Assembly (NCBI GenBank): GCA_003563855.1
Contig: PWTM01000225.1
Location: 1-36,170, forward strand
Direction: 5' to 3'
Source of the DNA: PVC group bacterium
GTDB taxonomy: Bacteria > Verrucomicrobiota > Kiritimatiellia > PWTM01
Length of the DNA stretch: 36,170 nucleotides
The notes beneath the pieces were generated by a model that had not been told where the DNA came from, made no database searches, and saw nothing but the letters and a program-made list of their open reading frames with translations. Within the stretch, counting starts at the first letter, position 1. The number at the start of each line of letters is the position of its first letter. Below are positions 3,624 to 23,989 of the stretch, piece by piece. The translations under genes were made by a program, and so were the position numbers.

Positions 3624-3905
3624 ATGCGCTACCGACACAGCAGCGGAATTCACGGCCAGACCGTCGGCGAGGAGCGCATGCTCTTCGACGACGCGGCCGA
3701 CGCGGTTCACGTCCTCAATGGAACCGCGGCCTTTATATGGGACTGCCTTCGCAAACCCGCTTCGGCGCACGGCATCGAGGTGCGGCTGCACGAGGTGTAC
3801 GACCTGCACGACGTGCCGGACGTGTCGGACATGATCGCCCGCACACTGGCGGACTTTCTGGATCGAGGCATCATCGAGCCGGTTCCGGACGAGGGCCACC
3901 CCTGA
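3624..3905 (+). CDS. PqqD family peptide-binding protein (RRE-like)
   Basis: MRYRHSSGIHGQTVGEERMLFDDAADAVHVLNGTAAFIWDCLRKP...DVSDMIARTLADFLDRGIIEPV: PqqD-like core (..LFD...VHVLN.TAAFIWDCL...). Confidence 0.8.
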   Translation: MRYRHSSGIHGQTVGEERMLFDDAADAVHVLNGTAAFIWDCLRKPASAHGIEVRLHEVYDLHDVPDVSDMIARTLADFLDRGIIEPVPDEGHP

Positions 3906-3914
3906 AGCGAATTC

Positions 3915-4319
3915 GGGCGCATCTCACTTCTGGCGGTCTCTGCCCGAAAGGCCTCGCGGCGGCTATCTTAGCATGTGCGCATGGCCATGCGTCGGCGCAC
4001 GAAAGGCGGACGGAGACGATTCTGCTTGCCCCGACTCGGTGGAGTTCGCGGCAAAGATAGCGTTGGAGTTCGTCTCGCCGGAGTTGTCGAGGCAATTAAC
4101 GAAGGAGGACGACCTTCAAACGCCTGGTGGGCGCTTCCGTATAGGAATGGATTCTCGTGCGGAAACGACATTGCGACCATTCTTCCCACGATTAACTACG
4201 GCGTCAACTTCCTCCTAAACTCCACCGGATCTAACGTGTCCGTCAACGTTGCCGCGAACTACATCGGCTCCCATGCCCCGTCCATGCGGGTGTTGCACCG
4301 CCCGAAGTGAGATGCGCCC
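3915..4319 (+). mobile_element. MITE-like element copy A, 405 bp
   Basis: Perfect 16-bp terminal inverted repeats GGGCGCATCTCACTTC...GAAGTGAGATGCGCCC; flanks AGCGAATTC/GGCGAATTC (9 bp, 8/9 identical); near-identical to 23526-23930. Confidence 0.9.
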
Positions 4320-4335
4320 GGCGAATTCCCGGGGC

Positions 4336-4421: not shown

Positions 4422-4607
4422 ATGAACAGGAAGAAGCGGTTCGAGCCGCCGGTGATCTTGACCTACCGGCGCGAGGAACTGGTCGTAGAGACCGTGTTCA
4501 CCGGAGAGGATCCGTCGGAAGTCCTGGTCAGCGATCGGTGCCTGAAAAGGGACGTCCGCCCGGCCCGGGGTTGCGCGGTTCTGGATGCCGTGCTCCGCGT
4601 CGCCTGA
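4422..4607 (+). CDS. Leader-like short peptide 1 with C-terminal S74-start-like segment
   Basis: MNRKKRFEPPVILTYRREELVVETVFTGEDPSEVLVSDRCLKRDVRPARGCAVLDAVLRVA; N-terminal block shared with 10642-10758 and 16389-16514. Confidence 0.75.
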   Translation: MNRKKRFEPPVILTYRREELVVETVFTGEDPSEVLVSDRCLKRDVRPARGCAVLDAVLRVA

Positions 4608-4791
4608 CGGTGGCCGCGGTTCGCCTGTGAAGCGAACGCGCCGCGATGGGGTACGGCCGGTTGCCGGGATTTCCCGCGGCGCGGAGGGTGGATTTCTCCC
4701 CGAGGTTCCAGTGCCGGACGCGGCGAAGGTCTTCGCGGAACTCGGGCTCGGCACGGGGGAAGGTTCGGTTCATCCCGCGGATTCTTGCGGC

Positions 4792-4947
4792 ATGACACTC
4801 GGCGCCCTGCAGGAGCTTCTGGTGCGGGTCGAACGCCAGCGTCGGGCGATCCACCGTCTCTCGGCCCGTGTGGACCGGCTTCGCGCGGCGGAGTCCCGCC
4901 CGGTCCCATCGGCGACCGCGCGGGGAAGGGGGGCGGCCCGGCGATGA
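4792..4947 (+). CDS. Short coiled-coil-like protein
   Basis: MTLGALQELLVRVERQRRAIHRLSARVDRLRAAESRP...; its TGA overlaps the next ATG (ATGA at 4944-4947), suggesting coupling. Confidence 0.4.
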   Translation: MTLGALQELLVRVERQRRAIHRLSARVDRLRAAESRPVPSATARGRGAARR

Positions 4948-5342
4948 AGCGTCCGCAGTCCCGCACGCCGAAGGGGCCGGCCCGCACCGCGGTCGACCCG
5001 GCCGATATCCTGGAGCGGCTGGCTCGGCTTCGCATCCAGACGTGGAGTTACACCTTCGAGCCCGGGGTCCGCCACATCGGGCCGATGGCGCAGGAGTTCG
5101 CGGAGGTATTCGGCCTGGGCGGGGACGCCCGCCGGATCCGGCTGAACGACGCGATCGGTATCGCCTTTGCCGCGATCCGCGGCCTGCACGCGATGCTCGA
5201 GGAGAACGAGGCCCGGTTGACTGCGCTGCGCGCGGAACTGGAAGCGCTCCGCGGCGGCGTGCCGCGCCCGGGGCCCGGGAACATGGGCGGCGCCGGGCGC
5301 CGCGGCGGGAAGAAGCGCGCGCCTGGCGCGCCGCCCACCTGA
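4944..5342 (+). CDS. S74-type intramolecular-chaperone-like domain protein
   Basis: VDPADILERLARLRIQTWSYTFEPGVRHIGPMAQEFAEVFGLGGDARRIRLNDAIGIAFAAIRGLHAMLEENEARL matches the Peptidase_S74 pattern (ILERL..L.I.TW.Y....VRHIGPMAQ.F...FGLG......D..G.A.AAI.GL). Confidence 0.75.
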   Translation: MKRPQSRTPKGPARTAVDPADILERLARLRIQTWSYTFEPGVRHIGPMAQEFAEVFGLGGDARRIRLNDAIGIAFAAIRGLHAMLEENEARLTALRAELEALRGGVPRPGPGNMGGAGRRGGKKRAPGAPPT

Positions 5343-5349
5343 GGCCGAC

Positions 5350-6177
5350 GTGCCGATGGGAGAGCCCCACGTCCGTTCGGTTGAGGTTCGGTCGCCCGCT
5401 TCGCTTCCGGAGGCGATGGCGAAACTGGTCGCCGACCTGGACCCGGGCCTCCCGGCGGAATTCGCAGGCCGGCGCGTGCTGCTGAAGGCCAACTTCAACA
5501 GCCCGCACCGCTATCCGGCGACGAGCGCGCCCGAAGCGCTCGCGGCGCTGGTCGCGCTGCTGCGCTCCGCCGGGGCGGCGGAGATTCGCATCGGGGACAG
5601 TTGCGGACTGCGCTGGGCGCCGGCGGCGCGCGTGGCCGAGGCCCTGGGTGTGCCGGCGCTCGCCGCGCGGCTGGGCGTGGAATGGGTCGATTTCGATGCC
5701 GGCCCCTGGGTGGACGTGCCGGTCGGCGGGCGCTTCTTCCCGAAGGTCCGCCTCGCGGAGGCGGCGGTCCGGGCCGAGTGCATCGTCTACTGCTGCTGCG
5801 TGAAGACGCATCCGGCGGCCCGCTTCTCGGCGAGCCTGAAGCATGCGATCGGGTTCCTCGCGCCCGAGCAGCGCGCGGCGATGCACCGCGGTGACATGGC
5901 GGAGCGGATCGCGGAGATCAACGCCGCGGTCACGCCCCGCCTCGTCGTGGCCGACGCCCGCAAGTGCTTCGCGGCCGGCGGTCCCGCGGTCGGCTGGGTA
6001 CGGCGGTCGGGCCTGCTGCTGGCCTCGGCCGACCGGGTCGCGCTGGACTGCGAAGCCGTGCGCATCCTGCGCGGGTTCCGTCCGCGGCTGCACCGGTTGG
6101 CGGCCGATCCCGAGGACGAGCCGCAGATCCGCGCGGCCCGTGCGCTGCGCCTCGCCCCGGCGGGCGGCGGCTCGTGA
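5350..6177 (+). CDS. DUF362 family protein
   Basis: RRVLLKANFNSPHRYPATSAPEALAALVALLRSAGAAEIRIGDSCG...CIVYCCCVKTHPAARFSASLKHAIGFL resembles DUF362. Confidence 0.75.
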   Translation: MPMGEPHVRSVEVRSPASLPEAMAKLVADLDPGLPAEFAGRRVLLKANFNSPHRYPATSAPEALAALVALLRSAGAAEIRIGDSCGLRWAPAARVAEALGVPALAARLGVEWVDFDAGPWVDVPVGGRFFPKVRLAEAAVRAECIVYCCCVKTHPAARFSASLKHAIGFLAPEQRAAMHRGDMAERIAEINAAVTPRLVVADARKCFAAGGPAVGWVRRSGLLLASADRVALDCEAVRILRGFRPRLHRLAADPEDEPQIRAARALRLAPAGGGS

Positions 6178-7616
6178 ACGTCGCGCTCGTCGAGCTCGCG
6201 CCGCGTTCGCGCCTGCTGCGGGTTCCGCTCTGGTGGCCGGTCTACCTGCCCCAGCTCGCGGCCGTGCTGCGCGCCGGCGGGCACGCGGTCGAGATCCTGG
6301 AGCCGTGGGCGGACGGACCGGAGAGCGCCGCGCCGGAGCGGCTTTCCCGCGCGCTGCGCACGCGGCCGCCGGACCTGGTCGTCTTCGACGCCGGGGCGGA
6401 AGGGTGGGGCGCCCTGCGCGCCTGCGCCCGCGCAGCCCGGGCGACGGCGCCGTCCGCCCGATTGCTGGCCGGCGGCCGGTACGTTTCGCCGTGGCCGGCC
6501 GGCATCCTGGAACACGCGCCGGAATTGGATGCCTCGCTCGTCGGCGAGTCCGAACGCGCCGTCGAGGCGCTGGCGGACGGCGCCCCGCCGGCGTCGGTGG
6601 CCGGGGTCCACGTCCGCGGCGCCACGGCCGCGCAACCTTCGGCGCCGGTGCCCGATCTCGATGCGCTGCCGTTCCCGGCCTGGGATCTCCTGGACCTGCC
6701 GTACTACGCGCGGCGGACGCCGCGCGTGATCCCCTGCCTCCCGCTCCGGACCGCGACGTTGCAGAGCGCGCGCGGGTGCTCGGGCGCGTGCCGCTTCTGC
6801 GTCGAGGGCCGCCTGCACGCGCGGCCGCACCGGTTTCACGGCGCGGCCTACGTGGTCGAGGCGGTGGAACGGCTGGCGGTCACCCACGGCATCGAGGCGC
6901 TGTACTTCTCCGACGAGAGCTTCCTCGCCGACCGCGCGCGCGTCGCCGGGCTCTGCGAGGCCCTGTTGCGGAGCCCGGTCGCGCGGCGGCTGCGCTGGGC
7001 GGCCCAGGTGCGCGCGGACACGGTGGATGCCGAAATCCTGGCGCTGATGCGCCGGGCCGGCTGCGTCCAGCTCGAGTTCGGCGTCGAGAGCGGATCGGAC
7101 CGGATGCTGGCCGCCCTGGGCAAGGGGCTCGATGCCGCGCGGAACCGCACCGCGCTGCGGCTTGCGCGCGCAGCCGGCATTCGCTCGCTGGCCTACGTCA
7201 TGGTGGGCCTGCCGGACGAGACGCGCGAGGATCTCGCATGCACCCGCCGGTTCCTCGCCGAGGCCCGTCCGGATGTCGTCCGCCTCAACCCGTACATGAT
7301 CCTCCCCGGCACCCCGCTGGCGGGCCGGCTGGCGGCGGAAGGCCGAATTCCGCCGGACGGACCCGGCGGCGCCGATCGGGCGCTGACCGCGTTGTCCGGC
7401 GAGGCGACGAACGTCACCGCGATGCCACTCGGGGAGCTGCGTGCGGCGGTCCGACAGCTCGAACGCGAGGCGGTGCTCGCCCGGCTCGCGCGGGATTTCC
7501 TCGTTCACAATCCGCCCTGGGCGCTGGCGCGCTACTTCCGGGTGCGCGCGGTGCCGGCCTGGATCCGGCACAGGCGGCGCGGGCCGGGCGCGCGACCGGC
7601 GCCACTCCGCGGCTGA
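6174..7616 (+). CDS. B12-binding-type radical SAM protein
   Basis: GTG start overlaps upstream TGA. CxxxCxxC motif SARGCSGACRFC; N-terminal half LPQLAAVLRAGGHAVEILE...; VQLEFGVESGSDRML. Confidence 0.85.
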   Translation: MNVALVELAPRSRLLRVPLWWPVYLPQLAAVLRAGGHAVEILEPWADGPESAAPERLSRALRTRPPDLVVFDAGAEGWGALRACARAARATAPSARLLAGGRYVSPWPAGILEHAPELDASLVGESERAVEALADGAPPASVAGVHVRGATAAQPSAPVPDLDALPFPAWDLLDLPYYARRTPRVIPCLPLRTATLQSARGCSGACRFCVEGRLHARPHRFHGAAYVVEAVERLAVTHGIEALYFSDESFLADRARVAGLCEALLRSPVARRLRWAAQVRADTVDAEILALMRRAGCVQLEFGVESGSDRMLAALGKGLDAARNRTALRLARAAGIRSLAYVMVGLPDETREDLACTRRFLAEARPDVVRLNPYMILPGTPLAGRLAAEGRIPPDGPGGADRALTALSGEATNVTAMPLGELRAAVRQLEREAVLARLARDFLVHNPPWALARYFRVRAVPAWIRHRRRGPGARPAPLRG

Positions 7617-7648
7617 CGAATGCAGGCGGCATCGCTATCGTCCGGACG

Positions 7649-8839
7649 ATGAGTACACGGGAGGAACTGGAGAGCGTTGACCTGGCGCCCGGCGCGCGCG
7701 CCGAGGCGGCGGCGCGCTGCACCGCGACATTCGACTTCGCGATACTCGGCGGCCGGGTGCGGCTGCGCACCAATGTGCCGGACGTCCTGGGCGGCTTCCT
7801 TCGCACCTACGCGACGTTTGCGCAGCCGACCGATTCGGCCGCGCCGGCCGACCTCGAGATCGTCGCGGTCCGGCCGCCGGGCGCCGGACCCGAACTGCTC
7901 TTCCTGGCGCGCGACCGCGCCTACCGGACGGCGTATCCGCGGCTGGTCGCGGATCCCGAACCGGTGATCGAGTATCTCGCAGTCACCCACAACCGGTCCC
8001 ATTACCTGGTCCACGCCGGCTGCGTCAGCCGGGCCGGCCGCGGCCTCGCGATCGCCGGCGCTTCGCGCATGGGCAAGACCACGCTCACCGCCTTCCTCGT
8101 CGCGCGCGGCTTCCGCTACCTCTCCGACGAGGTCGCGCCCGTCTCGCGTGCCGACGGAACCCTCTCGCCCTATCCGCTCGCGCTGGGCATCCGGGCCGGT
8201 CCCGCCTCGGCCCTGGTCGCAGACCTGCCGTACACGGAGTTCGTCAGCGAGACGGACCGGAAGGCGATGGTGAACGCCTGCGACTTCACGCCGGCCATCG
8301 CGCAGGCGCCCGTGCCGCTGCACGCGGTTGTGTTCCTCACGAACCGGGTGGCGCCCGACGTTCGTACGCCGCACCGCTTCGACGGCAAGGCGTCCGTGTG
8401 GTTCAACGCGATGAACCCGGCGTTCCGCGCCGCGGTGCTCGAGCGGACGGGGTCGGAACGGCTGGCCGAGCGCAGCATCGGAGACCAGGTTCACGTACTG
8501 ACCCTGCGCAGCCGCGCGCCCGACGGCTTCCTGGACGCGCTGCGGGCCGTGGCCCGGACGCACGGCATCGGGATCGTATGGATGCAGGTCGAAGATCTCG
8601 ATCCCGCCGACTTCGATGCGGCGCCGCGTCTATTGCGGCTCCCCATCGCGGTTGGACTGGTCGAGCTGATCAAGAAGCTCCCGTCCAGCCAGAAGGCCGA
8701 GCTTGTGCGGACGCAGTTCGGCGGGCGGATGACGGGCCTCGTCGGGGAACTCGCGCGGCGGGTCGGCCACGCGGCCTTCTACAAGCTCTCGCCGGGCCGG
8801 CTGGAAGCCATGGTCGAAACGCTCGAGCGCCTCGCATGA
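7649..8839 (+). CDS. HPr-kinase/phosphorylase-like (HprK-like) protein
   Basis: YLVHAGCVSRAGRGLAIAGASRMGKTTLTAFLVARGFRYLSDEVAPV: HprK-like P-loop and downstream motif. Confidence 0.75.
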   Translation: MSTREELESVDLAPGARAEAAARCTATFDFAILGGRVRLRTNVPDVLGGFLRTYATFAQPTDSAAPADLEIVAVRPPGAGPELLFLARDRAYRTAYPRLVADPEPVIEYLAVTHNRSHYLVHAGCVSRAGRGLAIAGASRMGKTTLTAFLVARGFRYLSDEVAPVSRADGTLSPYPLALGIRAGPASALVADLPYTEFVSETDRKAMVNACDFTPAIAQAPVPLHAVVFLTNRVAPDVRTPHRFDGKASVWFNAMNPAFRAAVLERTGSERLAERSIGDQVHVLTLRSRAPDGFLDALRAVARTHGIGIVWMQVEDLDPADFDAAPRLLRLPIAVGLVELIKKLPSSQKAELVRTQFGGRMTGLVGELARRVGHAAFYKLSPGRLEAMVETLERLA

Positions 8840-10551
8840 GCGGCGTTCCCGAGACGGGCCTGGCGACGCCGGAGTTCGTTCGTACGTCCGGCCGCAGCAT
8901 GTGGCCGCTCATCCGACACGGCGCGCTCATCGCCCTTCGTCCCGCGACTCCCGAGACGGTGACCCCGGGCGAGATCGTCGCTTTCCGCCGGGACGGCCGG
9001 CTCTTCGCACACCGCCTGTTGGCCGTCCGCCGCGGGGCGGGCGGGTTCGAACTGCGCGAGAAGGGCGACCACAACCGCGGCGCTTCCTGGATCGAGGGCG
9101 ACCGGCTGGTCGGCGCGGCCGTCGAGTTGCGCGAGGGTCCTTGCCGACGGTCGTTGGGCGTCGATCCGCGCGGCCGCCGTATCCGGTGGCTGACCGCGCT
9201 CCTGCGCCTCGAGGCCGACCTCGTCGAGCGCTGGATCCGCGTGCGCTTGCGAGGTGGCGCGCCGGCCCGGCTCCGCCCGCTGCTGCTCCCGGCCGCGCTG
9301 CTCCTGGCGCCGGCGCGCGCCCTGCTGGTCCGGCTGCTGCTGACCGCCTACCCGCGGCCGACCACGGTCGAGGACGCCGGCGCGCTGGTCGCGCTGGTCC
9401 GTTCTTTCCGGGCGCTGTTCCCCGGCGCCCGGGCGGAGGGCGACGCCGAAGCCGGAACCGTACCCGGCGATGGCGTCGCGCTGATCGAGGCGGCCGCGGC
9501 GCACGGCCTCGTGCCGTCGCTCGTCGCCGTCGGATCGCTGCCGCCCACCCTCGCGCGGGCGGTGCGCCGGCAGTCCTACCGCACGGCGCTCGACCACGAG
9601 CGCGCGAAGCCGGCGTTGCGGTCGGCGACCCGCGCGCTGGATGCGGCCGGCGTTCCCTACGCGGTGCTCAAGGGGCCCGCCCTCTACGAGGCCTTCTACC
9701 GGGACCGGTTCCCTCGCGCGTACTGCGATCTCGACCTGCTCGTTCCGCGCGACCGGATCGAGGTCGCGCTTGCCGCACTGGCCGGGGCGGGGTACGCGGT
9801 GGAGGGGGGGGCGCGCCGGCAGGCCTTTCTCCGCCGTTTCCACTTCCACCTCGCGCTGACCTCGCCGCGGCCCGGCTGGCCGCCGATCGAGCTGCACTGG
9901 GCCCTGGTCGACCGCGCCAACCTCTACCGGTTACCCGCCGACGCGGGCCTGGCGCGGCGGCAAACCCTGGGCGCCGGGGACGATGCCTTCGCCGTGCTCG
10001 AACCCGGGGATGCGCTGCTCTACCTCTGCCTCCATGTCGCCAAGCACGCCCCCTTCAACGCGAACGGCCTTCGCCGCGGCGTCGGCGCCGAGTGGTTCAT
10101 CCGGGCTTCCGTCGGCAACCGCCTGCTCTGGTTCGCCGATATCGCCCTGCTGCTCGAACGCGCATTCGACCGGTTCGACTGGCCGGAACTGCGTCGCCGG
10201 GCGCGGGACTGGAATACCACCGAAGATGTCGGGGTCACGCTGCGGGTCCTGCACCTTCTCGCGCCCGGTTCGCGCGCGGGCGCGGCGCTCGAACGGCTGG
10301 GCCTTCCCGCCGTGGCGCCGGTGCGGATGCGGCGGCGGGCGTGGTCCGGCGCGGGGCCCGCGCCGGAGTGGGCCCTGCGCATGAACCCCGTCGTGCTCTT
10401 CCGCCCGATCCGGGTCCTGCTGGCCTTCCGCCTGCTGTTCCCCCCGCCGGGCCGGCTCCTCGCATACTACGCCGGCGTCTCGCGATGGCGGTTGCCCCTG
10501 CTCGTCCTGGTCCATCCGTTCCACATGGCCGGCCGGCTCCTGCGGAAGTAG
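8836..10551 (+). CDS. S26 signal-peptidase-like domain fused to NTP_transf_5-type nucleotidyltransferase
   Basis: ATGA overlap with upstream gene. N-term GRSMWPLIRHGALIALRP...FAHRLLAVRR...EKGDHN (SipW/Sec11-like); C-term YAVLKGPALYEAFYRDRFPRAYCDLDLLVP...IELHWALVDR (NTP_transf_5). Confidence 0.75.
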   Translation: MSGVPETGLATPEFVRTSGRSMWPLIRHGALIALRPATPETVTPGEIVAFRRDGRLFAHRLLAVRRGAGGFELREKGDHNRGASWIEGDRLVGAAVELREGPCRRSLGVDPRGRRIRWLTALLRLEADLVERWIRVRLRGGAPARLRPLLLPAALLLAPARALLVRLLLTAYPRPTTVEDAGALVALVRSFRALFPGARAEGDAEAGTVPGDGVALIEAAAAHGLVPSLVAVGSLPPTLARAVRRQSYRTALDHERAKPALRSATRALDAAGVPYAVLKGPALYEAFYRDRFPRAYCDLDLLVPRDRIEVALAALAGAGYAVEGGARRQAFLRRFHFHLALTSPRPGWPPIELHWALVDRANLYRLPADAGLARRQTLGAGDDAFAVLEPGDALLYLCLHVAKHAPFNANGLRRGVGAEWFIRASVGNRLLWFADIALLLERAFDRFDWPELRRRARDWNTTEDVGVTLRVLHLLAPGSRAGAALERLGLPAVAPVRMRRRAWSGAGPAPEWALRMNPVVLFRPIRVLLAFRLLFPPPGRLLAYYAGVSRWRLPLLVLVHPFHMAGRLLRK

Positions 10552-10565
10552 CCTCGCTGCCGCGC

Positions 10566-10594
10566 TTGACACGCACGGGCGAATGCGCGACAAA
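10566..10594 (+). promoter_or_regulatory. Candidate promoter of peptide gene 2
   Basis: TTGACA at 10566-10571; weak -10 candidate GACAAA after 17 nt; hairpin AAGGCCA-TGTT-TGGCCTT at 10601-10618 in the leader. Confidence 0.3.
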
Positions 10595-10641
10595 GGATGA
10601 AAGGCCATGTTTGGCCTTCCACCAGCCGGGGAGCGGAAGAC

Positions 10642-10758
10642 ATGAAAGAGAAGAGGCGCTTCGAGCCACCGAAGATCGAAACATTCCGGCGCGACGAGCT
10701 CATCGTCGAGACGGCGTTCACCGGGGTCGTCATGAAGTCCCCGGTGTTCCGCGACTAA
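10642..10758 (+). CDS. Leader-like short peptide 2
   Basis: MKEKRRFEPPKIETFRRDELIVETAFTGVVMKSPVFRD (38 aa), purine-rich GGGGAGCGGAAG upstream; not in the supplied ORF list because of length. Confidence 0.75.
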   Translation: MKEKRRFEPPKIETFRRDELIVETAFTGVVMKSPVFRD

Positions 10759-10774
10759 CGTCGCCCCGGCCGCG

Positions 10775-12064
10775 CTAGAAATACCACGTGGCGGTAACGA
10801 AGAGCTGGGGTCGTCCCAGGTCGAGGCCGTTCACGCGTCCGTCGAACTCGCTGGCTTCCGGCCCCGCGAAAAGGGAGGCGCCCAGTCCGACGAGGAGATC
10901 CGGCCGCCATTCGTACTCCAGCTCCGGGATCAGAACCATGCTGCGGTCGTTGAGATTTCGCAGCGCCGCCAGTTGCAGCCGCAGGGTATCCCGGGCCATC
11001 GAGGCCGTGCCGACGGCGACCAGGTAGTCCCGCGCCGCGAGCCGTCCGGTCAGGCGGTCGGCCGGCGCGTAGTCCTCGGGCCGCGCCGCCCCCCGGCCCC
11101 GGCGGTGGTACTCGGCCTGGAGCAGGATGTGGTCGAACGGATCGACCCGGAGCCCGAGGGCCGCATCGAGCGCGCGCGAAAGGCGGCCGGCATCGCGCCC
11201 CGTCCGTAGCGCGGATTCCGCGTAGACCACGGTCGCGCCGATCGAGCCGGCGACCTCGGCGGTGACCCGCTCCTCGACGCGTAGCGCAAGGTTCCCGTCC
11301 GGCCCGGCGACGCCCTCCACGGCGCGCACGAATCCCGCGCCGATGTCCCAGACGCCGGCGAACGCGCGGGCGCGTACACCGAACGGCAGTTGATCCGCCG
11401 AGGCGATCCCCCGCCCGGCCGTCGCGCGGCGGGTCCGGTCCTCGAAGCCCACGTAGCCCTCGACGCCCCAGGAGGCGCCGGGCGTGAGGCTCGCCGTGAC
11501 CGCGGCGATGCCCGGGGGTTCGATCCCGGCGAAATCCGCCAGGGAGTCCGGGTTCGCCAGGTCGGTCGGATTGAACGCGTAGGCGGTGCCCCAGGCCAGC
11601 GGCTGGCGGCCGACGCGGAGATCCAGCGGGCCGAAGGACGCGGCCCCGTAGAGATAGTCCAGGTCGATACTCCGGGCCGCGTCGCCCGCGCGGGAATCCG
11701 CGGGCGGCACATCCTCCGCGCCGAGCGCGAGCCATCGCGTCCGCGGATCGGCCGCCCCGCGCAGGTCGCGCAGTTCGGCCTCCAGGACAACGCTCAGGTC
11801 GGGATCCGGCTCGAACCGAGCCCGGAGACGCACGATGCTGGAAAGGCCGACGAGCGCATCGTCCCCGCTCCGCGCGCGCGGCAGGACCAGGAGCCCGGTG
11901 GTCTCGAGATAACCCGACCACCGGATCCCCCCGTTCTCCGCCCACCCGCCGTTCCAGTCCCCGCCGCCGGGCTCCGGGGAATCCCAGTCGTCGGCCCAGT
12001 CGCCCGCGCGCGCGCCGCCGGCGGCCAGCACCGCGAGCAACAGGCCTCTATGCCAGGCCTTCAT
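10775..12064 (-). CDS. Outer-membrane beta-barrel protein (DUF1302-like, RND-associated)
   Basis: Signal peptide, beta-barrel pattern, terminal ...PQLFVTATWYF; next to outer-membrane lipoprotein-sorting and MMPL genes. Confidence 0.65.
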   Translation of the reverse strand: MKAWHRGLLLAVLAAGGARAGDWADDWDSPEPGGGDWNGGWAENGGIRWSGYLETTGLLVLPRARSGDDALVGLSSIVRLRARFEPDPDLSVVLEAELRDLRGAADPRTRWLALGAEDVPPADSRAGDAARSIDLDYLYGAASFGPLDLRVGRQPLAWGTAYAFNPTDLANPDSLADFAGIEPPGIAAVTASLTPGASWGVEGYVGFEDRTRRATAGRGIASADQLPFGVRARAFAGVWDIGAGFVRAVEGVAGPDGNLALRVEERVTAEVAGSIGATVVYAESALRTGRDAGRLSRALDAALGLRVDPFDHILLQAEYHRRGRGAARPEDYAPADRLTGRLAARDYLVAVGTASMARDTLRLQLAALRNLNDRSMVLIPELEYEWRPDLLVGLGASLFAGPEASEFDGRVNGLDLGRPQLFVTATWYF

Positions 12065-12085
12065 GACGGACGCCGGCCGGGCCGG

Positions 12086-12868
12086 CTAGCGGTGGAACCG
12101 GTTCGGGTGGAAGAGATCGTCATCGAGCGGGACATCCCATTCGACCTCGTGCATGCGGATTTCGGTGCGGGAATCGCCGGCGATGTTCACCATGACGAGG
12201 TGCGTGGCGACATGGCGTCCGCCGATCTCGCGGATCCGATCGGCTTCGAGGCGCTTCGCCGGCGCGTCGTTCTCGTAGTAGTCGATGCGGACCGGAACGT
12301 AGGTCGCGCGGTCGATGTGGAAGACGAGCCGGCTGTACTGGCTGTCGGACGAGCGCGGTTCTCCGGCGATCACCCAGCGGTCTTCGTTCTGGATCACGAA
12401 CTCGAAGCGGTGATAGTCGCTCGTGAAACCGCTGCCGCCCATGTCCTCGTAGGAAAAGTCCCCGCCGACCCCGCCCACGGAGCCGCGCCGGCCGGCGCCG
12501 CCGATGTTGCGCACTCTTCCCGTGGACGGGAAGAACACGCGCACCGCGCCATCCAGGTCCAGCACGCGGAGGCCCGCGATGCTGCGCGGGCTGGCGAACT
12601 CGATGTGCGTCGCGTCCATGCCCCGCGTGTAGGTGAGCAGCCGCAGTTCGCGGTCGTGGCGTTCGGCGTCGCGCCGATGGTAGATGCGCATGGTCATGCG
12701 GCTGCGGGCCGTGTCCGGACCCCGCTGCGCATCGACGCGCTCCATGATGGCTTCCGCCTCCGGCGATTCGGCCGTCGCTGCCGGCGCCCCGGCCAGCAGC
12801 GCGAGTCCGGCGCTCGCGAGGCACGCCGCGCGACGCCGCGCGGCGCGGGTGAGCAGCGTTCGGTTCAT
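12086..12868 (-). CDS. Outer membrane lipoprotein-sorting protein (LolA-like, PF17131-type)
   Basis: Signal peptide; SRMTMRIYHRRDAERHDRELRLLTYTRGMDATHIEFASPRSIAGLRVLDLDG...DYHRFEF...LVFHIDRATYVPVRIDYYENDAPAKRLE. Confidence 0.8.
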   Translation of the reverse strand: MNRTLLTRAARRRAACLASAGLALLAGAPAATAESPEAEAIMERVDAQRGPDTARSRMTMRIYHRRDAERHDRELRLLTYTRGMDATHIEFASPRSIAGLRVLDLDGAVRVFFPSTGRVRNIGGAGRRGSVGGVGGDFSYEDMGGSGFTSDYHRFEFVIQNEDRWVIAGEPRSSDSQYSRLVFHIDRATYVPVRIDYYENDAPAKRLEADRIREIGGRHVATHLVMVNIAGDSRTEIRMHEVEWDVPLDDDLFHPNRFHR

Positions 12869-15654
12869 GGCGTCTCCTTTCGTTCCCTTCGGTTCCGCCG
12901 GCGCTGCGCAAGGCTGAGGCAGGCCGGCAGGACGATCACGGTGGCCAGGAAGCAGGTGCCCAGTCCCACAAACAGCAGCGAACCCATGGCGGCGATGGTC
13001 GCCATTTCGCCGACGACGGCGAGCGACCCGAACGCCAGCATCGTTGTGACCGTGGTCAGCAGGACCGCCTTCCCGCTGTAGCGCAACGTGGGCTCGATCC
13101 GGCCGCCCTCGTGGCGGTACCGGTGGAGGATGTGCAGGGCGTCGTCCGTGCCGATCCCGATGAGCAGCGGGAACACGAGCCCCGCGGTCAGGGCCAGGTG
13201 CGTCCCCGCCAGCGGCAGCAGCCCGAACATCCAGGCGAGCCCGAGCACGACCATGGTGAAGGCCAGCAGCACCTGCCCGATCCGGCGGAAGGCCAGGAAC
13301 AGGAGCGCGAACACGGCCAGCGCCACGTAAACCCCGGCCCGTGTGGCCTCGGTGAAAATCTCGCGGGTCAGCTCCACGTAGAGGGGCACGGAGCCGGTGA
13401 CCCCGGGATCCACCCGGGTCGTCGCGGTGTGAAACGCGAGCACGGTGGCGCTGTCTTTCTGGGCGGCCGCGGTGGGGATGACGGTGACCAGGAAGCGCGA
13501 GCCATCGGCGGAGACGAGTTGCGGGCGGAGGGTTTCGGGCAGGTCGTCCACGGTTGGCGCGCGCGTGACGGCCATGTGACGCTGCTGGGCCGCCAGTGCC
13601 GGCGCGAGGGCCTCGTCCAGCGCCGCCAGCCGGCCGGCGGCCGCGTCGGCATCGGCCGTCACGGCGGCGATGGCGCGCTGGAAGACCTCGCGGCCGGGTT
13701 CGCCCACCTCCGCGCCGATGATCTCGCGGATCATCGTGTCGCGCCGCCGCGCCACGAGGTTGCCTTCGCCCATGCCGGCCACCGCGAGATCGCCCAGCTC
13801 GATCGCGTTCCACTCCAGGCGCTGGAGTTGCTCGGCGACCTCGCGCACATGGTCGGCGGTCCGCACTGTGCCTTCCAGTTCCGCGGCGTCCTGCGCGCCG
13901 CCGGGTCCCGCGGGGCCGCCCCGGGCGATCAACGCGAGCCGCTCGGAAACGTCGTCGGCCGGCGGGAGAAGGTCCGACACGGCGACCGCGCGGCTGACCA
14001 GGCGCTCGCGCCGGAAGGCCTCGGCCAGCTCGCGGGCGTCCTCCACCGAGGCGCGCGTCGCGAACGCGATGAAGGGCGAGACCTCCATGTGCGCCATGAT
14101 CGCCCGCTGCGTCGCCGTGTACCGGTGTGCCCGGGGCGCGTTGTTCATGGGGTCATAATCGACCACGTTCCGCGGGATGGCCCAGGCCGCGACGGCGGTC
14201 AGCGCGGCGGCGGCCGCCAGCGCCGCCCACGGATGTCGCTCGATCGCGCGGCCCAGGCGGCCCATGAAGCCGAAGTCGATCATCGGCCGCCAGCGGGCGC
14301 GGCGCAGTTCGCCCTTGCCGCCGAAGGAGAGGAGCAGCGCGGGGAAAAGCAGCAGCATCACGGCCAGCGTGATCAGCACGCCCATGCCCGCCACGAACCC
14401 GAACTCGCGGACGGCCGGCGAGCCCGAAAGGGAGAGGGAGGCAAACGCGACCGCCGTGGTCACGCCGCCGAGCATGATCGGGGCGCCGCCGGCCTGCATG
14501 GCCCGGCGCAGCGCCTCCGCGCGGTCCAGCCCCTCCAGGCGGAAGTCGTCGTAGTTGCTTACCAGGTGGATGCCGAAGTCGATGCCGAGGCCCATCAGGA
14601 TGACGGCGAAGATCGAGGTGATCATCGAGACGTGCCCGATCGTCAGCACGATGGCGCCCATCGTGAGCAGGATGCCGACGATCAGCGCCCCCAGGGCCAG
14701 CAGCATCTTGCGCAGGCGGGTGAAGGAGAAGAAGAACAGCACGACGATCAGCGCCAGGGCTACCAGTGTCGGGACGAAGGTGTCCGCGCCCGCGCCCTGG
14801 TGCCGCGCCACGGCCCAGGCGACTTCACCGCCCAGGCCGAGGCGGACGCCCTCCATGTCCCGCTCCACCGATTGGGCGATGGCATCCACGCCGTCAACGG
14901 CCCGGTAGAGCGCGTCGAAGTCGAGCATGTCGAAGGCGGGGACCAGGCTGAAGGTCAGCATGCCCTGCGTCGGCGACCAGGCATAGCGCTCGCCCACCAG
15001 CACGCTCTCGACCGCCTCGCGCGCCAGGTCCGCGGCCGCCTCCGGCGCCAGGTCGTCCCCGCCGGCGAGCGCCGCGCGCACCGCGGTCGCGAGCCGCTCA
15101 AAGCCGCCGAGCACGGCGAGCCCGCTCCACTGGTCCTGGTTCGTTGCGAAACGGTCGTCGTCGGCGAGTACCACGTCCTCGAGCGTGTCGTTCAGCGTCG
15201 TGAGCAGGCCCAGCAATGAGCGCTGCTCGAGCATCCGTTGAACCCGCTCCGCGTCCTCCGGCTCGTCGGCCAGCATCAGTCCCCAGCGCAGCGGGTACTC
15301 GGACTCGGTCTCGGCGCGGACAGACCGGAACAGCGCGGCCAGCTCGGCATCGGCGCGCAGGCGCTCCGCCGCCTCGCGCGCGGCGGCCTCGACCGCGTCG
15401 CGGTCGTCCCCCGTAACCGCGACGATCAGGGTCGAGGCGAACCCGAAGGCCTCCTCGATCTCGAAGAACTGCGAAGCGACCGGGTTGTCTTCGCCCAGGA
15501 GTTGTTCGGGTTCGACCACGAGCCCCAGCCGCTGGCTGAGCGCGAGGCTGGCGACGAGCAGGACGCCAAAGACCGTGTAGACCCACCCGCGCCGCCGGAT
15601 CGCCACCTCCGCCATCCAGGCGGTCATCCGCTCTTCGCGTGTCAGCTTCGCCAT
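12865..15654 (-). CDS. MMPL/RND family transporter
   Basis: 929 aa, two RND repeats; SMITSIFAVILMGLGIDFGIHLVSNYDDFR and GLVFPLLIGIGTDDALHILHRYRHEG. Confidence 0.9.
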   Translation of the reverse strand: MAKLTREERMTAWMAEVAIRRRGWVYTVFGVLLVASLALSQRLGLVVEPEQLLGEDNPVASQFFEIEEAFGFASTLIVAVTGDDRDAVEAAAREAAERLRADAELAALFRSVRAETESEYPLRWGLMLADEPEDAERVQRMLEQRSLLGLLTTLNDTLEDVVLADDDRFATNQDQWSGLAVLGGFERLATAVRAALAGGDDLAPEAAADLAREAVESVLVGERYAWSPTQGMLTFSLVPAFDMLDFDALYRAVDGVDAIAQSVERDMEGVRLGLGGEVAWAVARHQGAGADTFVPTLVALALIVVLFFFSFTRLRKMLLALGALIVGILLTMGAIVLTIGHVSMITSIFAVILMGLGIDFGIHLVSNYDDFRLEGLDRAEALRRAMQAGGAPIMLGGVTTAVAFASLSLSGSPAVREFGFVAGMGVLITLAVMLLLFPALLLSFGGKGELRRARWRPMIDFGFMGRLGRAIERHPWAALAAAAALTAVAAWAIPRNVVDYDPMNNAPRAHRYTATQRAIMAHMEVSPFIAFATRASVEDARELAEAFRRERLVSRAVAVSDLLPPADDVSERLALIARGGPAGPGGAQDAAELEGTVRTADHVREVAEQLQRLEWNAIELGDLAVAGMGEGNLVARRRDTMIREIIGAEVGEPGREVFQRAIAAVTADADAAAGRLAALDEALAPALAAQQRHMAVTRAPTVDDLPETLRPQLVSADGSRFLVTVIPTAAAQKDSATVLAFHTATTRVDPGVTGSVPLYVELTREIFTEATRAGVYVALAVFALLFLAFRRIGQVLLAFTMVVLGLAWMFGLLPLAGTHLALTAGLVFPLLIGIGTDDALHILHRYRHEGGRIEPTLRYSGKAVLLTTVTTMLAFGSLAVVGEMATIAAMGSLLFVGLGTCFLATVIVLPACLSLAQRRRNRRERKETP

Positions 15655-15670
15655 GATCCGGCCCTCCGGT

Positions 15671-16183
15671 TCAGCCGCGCACGAACGGAATCGTCATCGG
15701 GTACTTCCATGCGGTCCCCTGTCCCGCCTTCACGGCCGCGACGATGCAGAAGATCAGGTCCATGACGTATATCGCGAGCAGCAGGAGGACGCCGACAAAG
15801 ACGAAGACCAGGATGATCGAGATGATCGAGTAGAGGATGAGACTGAGCTGCCAGTTCAGGGCGGCCCGCGCGTGCTGCTTGACCCGCGGTTCCGGTGAGG
15901 CGAGCAGGATGACCAGCGGGCCGATGAAGCCGGTCAGGAGGCCGAGCACGTGGGCCAGCACGCAGAGCGTCACGTCCGGCCGGGCGGCGGCCGCCGGGGG
16001 CGGCAGAGGAGGCGCGCCCGGCACGCCCGTGAAGAGGGGGGTGGCCCCCGCCTCCTGCCAGGCGTCCATGCCCTCGGTCCAGACCAGCGTTCGCCGTCCG
16101 ATAACCCCCGACCGGACCCGCTCGGCCGCCTCGGCCTCCGGGATCGGTCCGACCGCCCCGTTCTCCCCCGCGTAGTACCACAT
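15671..16183 (-). CDS. GYF_2 plus DUF4870-like membrane protein
   Basis: MWYYAGENGAVGPIPEAEAAERVRSGVIGRRTLVWTEGMDAWQEA (GYF_2) followed by hydrophobic DUF4870-like region ending AAVKAGQGTAWKYPMTIPFVRG. Confidence 0.8.
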   Translation of the reverse strand: MWYYAGENGAVGPIPEAEAAERVRSGVIGRRTLVWTEGMDAWQEAGATPLFTGVPGAPPLPPPAAAARPDVTLCVLAHVLGLLTGFIGPLVILLASPEPRVKQHARAALNWQLSLILYSIISIILVFVFVGVLLLLAIYVMDLIFCIVAAVKAGQGTAWKYPMTIPFVRG

Positions 16184-16310
16184 CGCATACCCCCCCCGAA
16201 ACCGGCGGCGCTGGCCGACGGTCGCAGGCGCAACATGCGACGAGGCGCTCCTCCCGGTCAAGTCCGCGCCGGACTCCCAGCTTGCCGCGTTCCCGGCCAC
16301 CGGGTGTATT

Positions 16311-16339
16311 TGACACCGACGCGAAAAGACGCTAGTCGT
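16311..16339 (+). promoter_or_regulatory. Candidate promoter of peptide gene 3
   Basis: TTGACA (16311-16316), 17-nt spacer, TAGTCG (16334-16339). Confidence 0.35.
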
Positions 16340-16388
16340 AGAGACGGTGCGGGTGCCTGTTGGTGGCGTCCGCGAGGGAGTATGCAAG

Positions 16389-16514
16389 ATGCAAGAGAAG
16401 AAACGCTTCGAACCGCCGAAGGTCGAGACGTTCCGGAGCGACGAGTTGATCGTCGAGACGGCGTTCACCGGGGAGGTGTGGATCGACTCGCCACCCAACG
16501 ACGTCCCGGTGTAA
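16389..16514 (+). CDS. Leader-like short peptide 3
   Basis: MQEKKRFEPPKVETFRSDELIVETAFTGEVWIDSPPNDVPV (41 aa); N-terminal block shared with peptides 1 and 2. Confidence 0.75.
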   Translation: MQEKKRFEPPKVETFRSDELIVETAFTGEVWIDSPPNDVPV

Positions 16515-16530
16515 GGCGGCCTCTGGGCCC

Positions 16531-16702
16531 CGCACGAACGGCAGAGTGATCGGGCCGTCCGGGCGACGTTCCGGAGCGGATGCGCCTGCACGTAAGCCAT
16601 TGCAGGGGCACGAAGGGCGGTCCTGCCGCTTGGCCGACCCTGGGCAGGAGCCGGCCTTTTCCATGCGGTCCCCTGTCCCGCCTTCACGGCCGCGACGATG
16701 CA
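16531..16702 (-). pseudogene. Remnant of a second DUF4870 3' end
   Basis: 44-nt exact direct repeat (15705-15748 = 16659-16702) plus CGCACGAACGG..GAGTGATCGGG-like sequence matching the TIPFVRG end. Confidence 0.65.
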
Positions 16703-22310: not shown

Positions 22311-22574
22311 GGGCGTATCTCACTTCTGCCGGCGCATATACCGCATTGACGGGGCCTGGGGCCGATGTAGTTCGCGGCAAAGTTGACGGATACTGCCTCG
22401 ACAACTCCTGCGAGACCAACTCCAACGCTATCTTTGCCGCGAACTCCACCGAGTCGGGGCAAGCAGAACCGTCTCCGTCGGCCTTTCGTGCTTCGGCGCA
22501 TTGCACAATGCCCACATGCTAAGATAGCCGGGGCCAGGCATTTCGGGCAGAGACCGCCAGAAGTGAGATGCGCC
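22311..22574 (-). mobile_element. MITE-like element copy C, internally deleted, 264 bp, inverted
   Basis: GGGCGTATCTCACTTC...GAAGTGAGATGCGCCC ends; exact 9-bp duplication GCTCGTGAT at 22302-22310 and 22575-22583; reverse complement of copies A/B with about 141 bp net loss. Confidence 0.9.
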
Positions 22575-22583
22575 CGCTCGTGA

Positions 22584-23525: not shown

Positions 23526-23930
23526 GGGCGCATCTCACTTCTGGCGGTCTCTGCCCGAAATGCCTCGCGGCGGCCATCTTAGCCTGTGCGCATGGTCATG
23601 CGCCGGAGCACGAAAGGCCGACGGAGACGATTCTGCTTGCCCCGACTCGGTGGAGTTCGCGGCAAAGATAGCGTTGGAGTTAGTCTCGCAGGAGTTGTCG
23701 AGGCAGTTAGCGAAGGAGGTCGACCTTCAAACGCCTGGTGGGCGCTTCCGTATAGGAATGGATTCTCGTGCGGAAACGACATCGCGACCATTCTTCCCAC
23801 GATCAACTACGGCGTCAACTTCCTCGTAAACTCCACTGGATCTAACGTGTCCGTCAACGTTGCCGCGAACTACATCGGCTCCCATGCCCCGTCCATGCGG
23901 GTGATGCACCGCCCGAAGTGAAATGCGCCC
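23526..23930 (+). mobile_element. MITE-like element copy B, 405 bp
   Basis: GGGCGCATCTCACTTC...GAAGTGAAATGCGCCC ends; exact 9-bp duplication GCCGGTGGG at 23517-23525 and 23931-23939; same length as copy A. Confidence 0.9.
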
Positions 23931-23989
23931 GCCGGTGGGGAGGGCACTCGACGCTCGCCAGGGCGGGGCGGATCTGGCAGGCTGGCGCC

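Follow-up and report, generated by a model that had tools for sequence, protein, structure and literature searches.

Three short ORFs in the window (the whole stretch of 36,170 nucleotides that was analysed) are probably, at odds of roughly two in three, precursor peptides for a RiPP-like pathway whose genes lie at 3.6–10.6 kb. Against the general criteria for RiPPs, a conserved leader with an RRE motif was found in 11/11 blocks, and in 3/3 genomes the peptide genes are linked to those for an RRE protein and for modifying enzymes. A pathway that operates in the manner of RiPPs, with tailoring enzymes of the lasso type, is well supported, and its peptides are candidate members of the RiPPs proper. 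The occurrence in only three genomes, the distance of two peptide genes from PqqD, the modest fold matches of PqqD, the scores of kinase and PqqD (NCBIfam) and of the S26 domain below cut-off, the lack of a conserved exporter, and the tails, which are unusually short for RiPP cores, count against this interpretation. An earlier sequence-only reading of the same DNA had proposed RiPP precursors; its proposal stood with regard to homologues, linkage, selection and motif, but not in its lasso comparison or its simple 'variable core'.

The Peptide Family in the Window

The peptides, named A, B and C, start with a conserved 28-residue block that is followed by a tail:

4422..4607, + strand: peptide A, 61 aa; conserved block at 4422–4505 and a 33-residue tail
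10642..10758, + strand: peptide B, 38 aa; block at 10642–10725 and the tail VVMKSPVFRD
16389..16514, + strand: peptide C, 41 aa; block at 16389–16472 and the tail EVWIDSPPNDVPV

All three were read at these positions exactly as they had been quoted before, with about 28 conserved residues, 17 of the 28 being common to A, B and C. They were the sole matches within the 3.27-Mb assembly (E = 2.9e-14, 3.3e-12 and 2.7e-8), and in an unbiased repeat search no direct-repeat family of the region was larger than that formed by the peptide genes, whose 85-nt repeat extends from the ATG to one base past codon 28, with no similarity reported further on. The peptides had no match in NCBIfam at E ≤ 1, and peptide A had no domain in Pfam.

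The 28-residue block is under purifying selection, with dN/dS of about 0.2–0.3, as the sequence-only reading had anticipated. The dN and dS values were 0.21 and 0.73 for A–B, 0.25 and 0.76 for A–C, and 0.08 and 0.45 for B–C, giving ratios of 0.29, 0.33 and 0.18, respectively, which are approximate over 28 codons. Synonymous changes thus exceed replacement changes, which fits a translated and constrained block with unrelated tails after it.

MITE-like and duplicated sequences were also observed near the peptide genes. A 407-bp MITE-like element with 24-bp terminal inverted repeats is located between the PqqD gene and peptide A (3914–4320), with further copies in the window at 23526–23934 and 22311–22576 and about 40 matches in the assembly, many of them at contig ends. 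The 3′ end of a DUF4870 gene (15674–15748) is partly duplicated beyond peptide C (16527–16702), including an exact 44-nt copy, suggesting local rearrangement around peptide C.

Distribution among Genomes of the Class

A profile of the block, searched against 347 genomes of the class at E ≤ 0.001, detected 11 blocks in 3/347 genomes and nothing else, and these three genomes belong to three different families. Homologues outside the window, for which the sequence-only reading had called, were therefore found: eight further blocks from two other families, in the genomes G017 and G344. G017 harbors four tandem peptide genes between PqqD and the radical SAM gene, and two more blocks on another contig, whilst G344 harbors two tandem peptide genes between PqqD and DUF362/radical SAM. 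Only P10, F26 and T27 are invariant among the 11 blocks. Of the weak profile matches elsewhere in the phylum, one in G122, at E = 0.03 within an open frame of 860 aa, was left out of the block count, and those in G406 and G442, which lie within larger ORFs, were rejected as chance.

The HprK-like kinase of the window was found in 3/347 genomes of the class (E ≤ 1e-20), the same three that carry the peptide; if the two were independent, the chance of this co-occurrence would be 1/C(347,3), about 1e-7. A scan of genome contigs with the kinase alignment, in which just two peptide patterns were usable, recovered only G017. The peptide genes adjoin both PqqD and the radical SAM gene in 3/3 genomes, so the association proposed at the outset was confirmed.

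Genes of the Cluster and Their Order

Five genes, besides the peptides and the S74-like ORFs described below, constitute the cluster in the window:

3624..3905, + strand: PqqD-like stand-alone RiPP recognition element, 93 aa (PF05402, E = 2.4e-5, above cut-off)
5350..6177, + strand: DUF362 protein (PF04015, E = 9.7e-42)
6174..7616, + strand: B12-binding radical SAM enzyme (PF04055, PF02310; the CxxxCxxC motif is CSGACRFC)
7649..8839, + strand: HprK-related kinase (TIGR04352, E = 3.5e-15; PF07475, E = 3.3e-4, below cut-off)
8836..10551, + strand: S24/S26-type signal-peptidase-like domain fused to an NTP_transf_5 nucleotidyltransferase domain (PF14907, PF00717)

The order in the window is PqqD, peptide A, two S74-like ORFs, DUF362, B12 radical SAM, HprK-like kinase, S26-nucleotidyltransferase fusion and peptide B, and the order PqqD, peptides, (DUF362), B12 radical SAM and HprK-like kinase is kept in 3/3 genomes. 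The PqqD orthologues adjoining the peptides in G017 and G344 share 44–49% identity, the radical SAM orthologues across the three genomes 47–51%, and the kinases 38–44%. DUF362 of the window is 61% identical to the G344 copy, which adjoins the peptides; no DUF362 was found in the G017 cluster. The S26-nucleotidyltransferase fusion is present in both clusters not cut by a contig end (window and G017, 40% identity), and the G344 contig ends inside the kinase. In the window fusion, PF14907 was detected at E = 1.1e-36, PF00717 at E = 3.9e-4, just below cut-off, and TIGR02228 at E = 5.7e-9, also below cut-off, and its S26 motifs SMWP, AHRLL and EKGDHN correspond to SMLP, AHRLI and EKGDHQ in G017.

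Peptides B and C lie apart from PqqD, at distances of 6.7 kb and 12.5 kb, respectively. Peptide C is located 5.6 kb past peptide B, beyond DUF1302, LolA-like, MMPL and DUF4870 genes, none of which were seen in the G017 and G344 clusters. The three clusters have no conserved exporter in common. A search of solved structures with the kinase profile gave HprK matches only, all sub-threshold, and the structure model of the kinase (pLDDT 49) was too poor to use.

Other loci with comparable genes were noticed as well. Locus L035 (G017 contig C31, 1840–9968) is a second, different cluster with MKEYQAPEVIEYPALTDVTGGSPLD, PqqD, a Transglut_core3 B2-like protease, an HprK-like kinase, a radical-SAM-like protein, a nucleotidyltransferase-like protein and a flippase; the radical-SAM-like protein looks like the B12 type by eye, no CxxxCxxC was found in it, and no lasso cyclase was seen among the ORFs read there. 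In G022, a peptide with a YQRPEV motif (KEYQRPEVKIIELKAEETLAVGC, L081, 7154–7342) lies directly upstream of an HprK-like gene, which suggests that such leaders accompany these kinases more widely. A more distant cluster in G054 (L073, 8106–12371) contains a 125-aa protein (SYRSNDIAELMGPVETQYG...), an HprK-like kinase and a PqqD-TPR-like fusion, with the S26-like peptidase and the nucleotidyltransferase as separate genes beside HprK and PqqD; the 125-aa protein, starting MIKSYRSNDIAELMGPVETQYG, is a candidate substrate. A 60-aa ORF, MEAQKKKYERPVVTRVRLEDKRVV... (L040, minus strand, start at 404), was detected near another PqqD gene in G344.

The PqqD Protein and the Recognition Motif

The sequence-only reading had compared an F-E-P-P-x-[IV] motif in the block with the motifs bound by RREs, and had pointed to a PqqD gene nearby. 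Both observations are borne out. The motif [FLI]xxPx[ILV] is kept in 11/11 blocks; in a search for [YFWLI]xxPx[ILVM], shuffled N-termini matched at 0.7–8.5% per peptide, and none of the 20,000 shuffled sets of 11 gave more than four motif matches, versus the 11 observed. W/Y/LxxP is the mapped motif that is bound by lasso and PqqD-type RREs (PMC12710340).

The PqqD gene lies upstream of peptide A, and its product scores 25 bits against PF05402 (cut-off 23.4). The structure model (mean pLDDT 67.7) shows three strands followed by three helices (beta-beta-beta-alpha-alpha-alpha), and the top nine PDB matches were all RRE domains or RRE-containing enzymes (E = 0.018–0.4), including the CteB sactipeptide enzyme, TbiB1 with the TbiA leader, and a lasso B1 with its leader. 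With modest confidence, PqqD is therefore predicted to adopt the winged-helix RRE fold of these leader-bound proteins. The motif and the partner PqqD make a good match, so that PqqD might well bind the peptides through it.

Tails of the Peptides and a Proposed Split S74 Domain

Three features connect the tail of peptide A with the S74 (endosialidase chaperone) domain:

4530..4595, + strand: putative S74 N-terminal motif SDRCLKRDVRPARGCAVLDAVL in the tail of peptide A, from shuffle tests, the downstream S74 ORFs and G017 C27
4585..4947, + strand: ORF of uncertain start, of which residues about 39–96 resemble the C-terminal half of S74
4944..5342, + strand: S74 domain without the N-terminal SDRxLK strand (PF13884, E = 2.4e-7)

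The tail of peptide A (SDRCLK...) aligns with SDRNVKENF... of full S74 proteins of G017 and with SDRNLKENLEPID, the peptide of G017 contig C27. Against three S74 N-termini, shuffled sequences scored as well in 11/20000, 67/20000 and 708/20000 cases, which is modest alone. The ORF at 4585..4947, with no match in Pfam, aligned with the ORF at the same position in G017 C27 (score 84, 0/2000 shuffles) and with a full S74 domain (1/2000 shuffles). The ORF at 4944..5342 reaches 31.4 bits against PF13884 (cut-off 22 bits), covering profile positions 14–53 of 58 with the N-terminal 13 positions missing, and no other S74 match was found in the assembly at E ≤ 0.001. A search of the S74 ORF against viral contigs found nothing.

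In both the window and G017 C27, the same pair of ORFs comes after the peptide, and the more distal of them is a PF13884 domain that misses the first strand. In view of the motif on peptide A, this shared two-ORF arrangement and the absence of any other S74 match in the window's genome, we interpret the tail of peptide A as the initial strand of an S74 domain that is split across separate ORFs. The motif on A, assigned by alignment and synteny with no family match, is weak evidence by itself. The S-D cleavage motif would then sit on peptide A, a separate chain from the PF13884 domain. In the S74 intramolecular chaperone of endosialidase and MYRF, the domain stands at the fibre end; the window shares with it the SDRxLK-type start, on peptide A, and PF13884, in ORF 4944–5342, but here the putative domain is divided among short ORFs, with a RiPP-type leader attached. 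That the PqqD pathway modifies this leader-borne strand, which then completes S74 in trans, is a speculative extension that we regard as rather unlikely. If true, a trimeric coiled-coil scaffold would display or release a modified peptide.

The remaining tails are short, with 10–13 residues in B and C and down to four in their relatives (AQPS after FTQ). The tails of B, C and G344 have nothing in common, while in five G017 tails a Tyr stands four positions after FT, and in three of these it forms part of a YN pair. The earlier statement that everything after FTG differs is correct for the three peptides of the window, but for A an origin of the tail can be identified, namely the S74 motif; similarly, of the expected constant leader with a variable core, the conserved leader block was retained, whereas peptide A ends in what appears to be a split S74 strand.

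Discussion

For binding, order of steps, cleavage and chemistry, we infer the following route. The stand-alone PqqD would grip the N-terminal F-x-x-P-x-[IV] motif and pass the peptide to the B12-radical-SAM enzyme and to a kinase and a nucleotidyltransferase acting as a pair (HprK-like, NTP_transf_5). The nucleotidyltransferase carries a fused S26-type peptidase domain, which would most likely cut the block off after the invariant F-T-[G] and so fill the slot of the B2 protease in lasso clusters. The tail of peptide A (the putative first S74 strand) may dock with the remaining part of S74, whose ORF follows shortly downstream.

PQQ (PqqA/PqqD/PqqE) and mycofactocin (MftA/B/C) also combine a small precursor, a PqqD-type RRE and a radical SAM enzyme. 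Unlike them, the present cluster has a B12-binding (BchE/AprD4-like) radical SAM enzyme plus a kinase and a nucleotidyltransferase, and its peptides are without a PqqA-like E..Y or an MftA-like VY end. A sactipeptide or another Cys-dependent thioether RiPP was rejected, as peptides B and C and the G344 peptides contain no Cys. In NCBIfam, the kinase and the PqqD protein come closest to the models of the HPr-rel-A system (TIGR04352 and TIGR04353), but both fall below the curated cut-offs (55.9 vs 200 bits and 30.5 vs 35 bits, respectively); no mention of this system was found in the literature searched.

The closest likeness is to phosphorylated and phosphoglycosylated lasso peptides (paeninodin, pseudomycoidin and BsfA type), which share a short precursor, a YxxPxL-type motif, a stand-alone PqqD-like B1, an HprK-type kinase and a nucleotidyltransferase that may be protease-fused. 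Unlike those clusters, the one described here adds a B12 radical SAM enzyme, shows no lasso cyclase among the genes scanned, and bears an S26-type domain on the nucleotidyltransferase in place of B2. The kinase of lasso clusters phosphorylates a hydroxyl, and the nucleotidyltransferase then adds a hexose to the phosphate; some of these clusters encode the nucleotidyltransferase as a fusion with the B2 protease (PMC8498205). A lasso B1 speeds the action of the kinase on the precursor (PMC10368454).

The peptides are nevertheless very improbable as lasso precursors themselves, and that interpretation is largely refuted, even with an FxxPx[IV] motif, a Thr-Gly at the block end, and homologues of PqqD (B1), kinase and nucleotidyltransferase that are all known from lasso clusters. 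No asparagine-synthetase-like cyclase was found in the Pfam-scanned genes of the window or in the scanned cluster genes of G017 and G344. The B2 protease (Transglut_core3, PF13471) was absent from the scanned window genes and from the whole genome of the window (G000, an assembly about 90% complete), and the PF13471 matches in G017 and in G344 (the latter below cut-off) lie on other contigs. The ring acceptor of lasso peptides is an Asp or Glu at positions 7–9, and neither residue occurs at these positions, counted from Gly28, in A, B or C, whose tails are too short for this class. Lasso leaders carry YxxPxL at −17 to −12 and Thr at −2, with a Gly1-Asp8 ring as an example (PMC10368454), whereas the motif here starts 20 residues before Thr27, versus 15 in lasso leaders. 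The lasso comparison made in the sequence-only reading thus fails as a class assignment, owing to the missing cyclase and B2, the motif spacing and the missing ring acceptor.

A stronger contender, though still unlikely, is that the block is itself the product or the modified site and not a throw-away leader, with enzymes modifying the invariant F-T and the short tail left as a trailing remnant. It would account for P10, F26 and T27 being the sole invariants, for the position of F-T 20 residues after the recognition motif, for tails of down to four residues with no common residue, and for T27 as the only invariant hydroxyl and natural target of an HprK-like kinase. The same features blur the leader/core border that had been drawn after FTG, given that the tails of B, C and relatives measure only 4–13 residues and an invariant F-T closes the supposed leader. 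On the other side, a conserved Thr near the end of lasso leaders serves protease recognition (PMC10368454), so a leader, too, would be expected to have an invariant Thr, and the Tyr shared by several G017 tails suggests that the tail matters there. Considerably less probable is a role for the peptides as small unmodified subunits, adaptors or regulators, linking PqqD and the kinase to an envelope or polysaccharide assembly system, in which the tail would serve for docking (by the S74 strand in the case of A). This would suit the MurJ-like flippase and the large membrane-protein ORF in the G344 cluster and the S74 strand, not a core, on peptide A; against it, the radical SAM enzyme and the S26-type peptidase domain with its conserved motifs are constant or near-constant partners, and tandem copies with differing tails (four in G017, two in G344) better fit substrates.

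In the literature searched, no description was found of a precursor for the gene set of PqqD, HprK-like kinase, S26-nucleotidyltransferase and B12 radical SAM enzyme. As precursors, the peptides described here give this set a defined substrate family, in a host class that is little studied among bacteria. The S74 link, if real, would join peptide modification to a self-cleaving fibre chaperone, and the cluster as a whole suggests that the kinase/nucleotidyltransferase kit of lasso peptides also works without a lasso cyclase.
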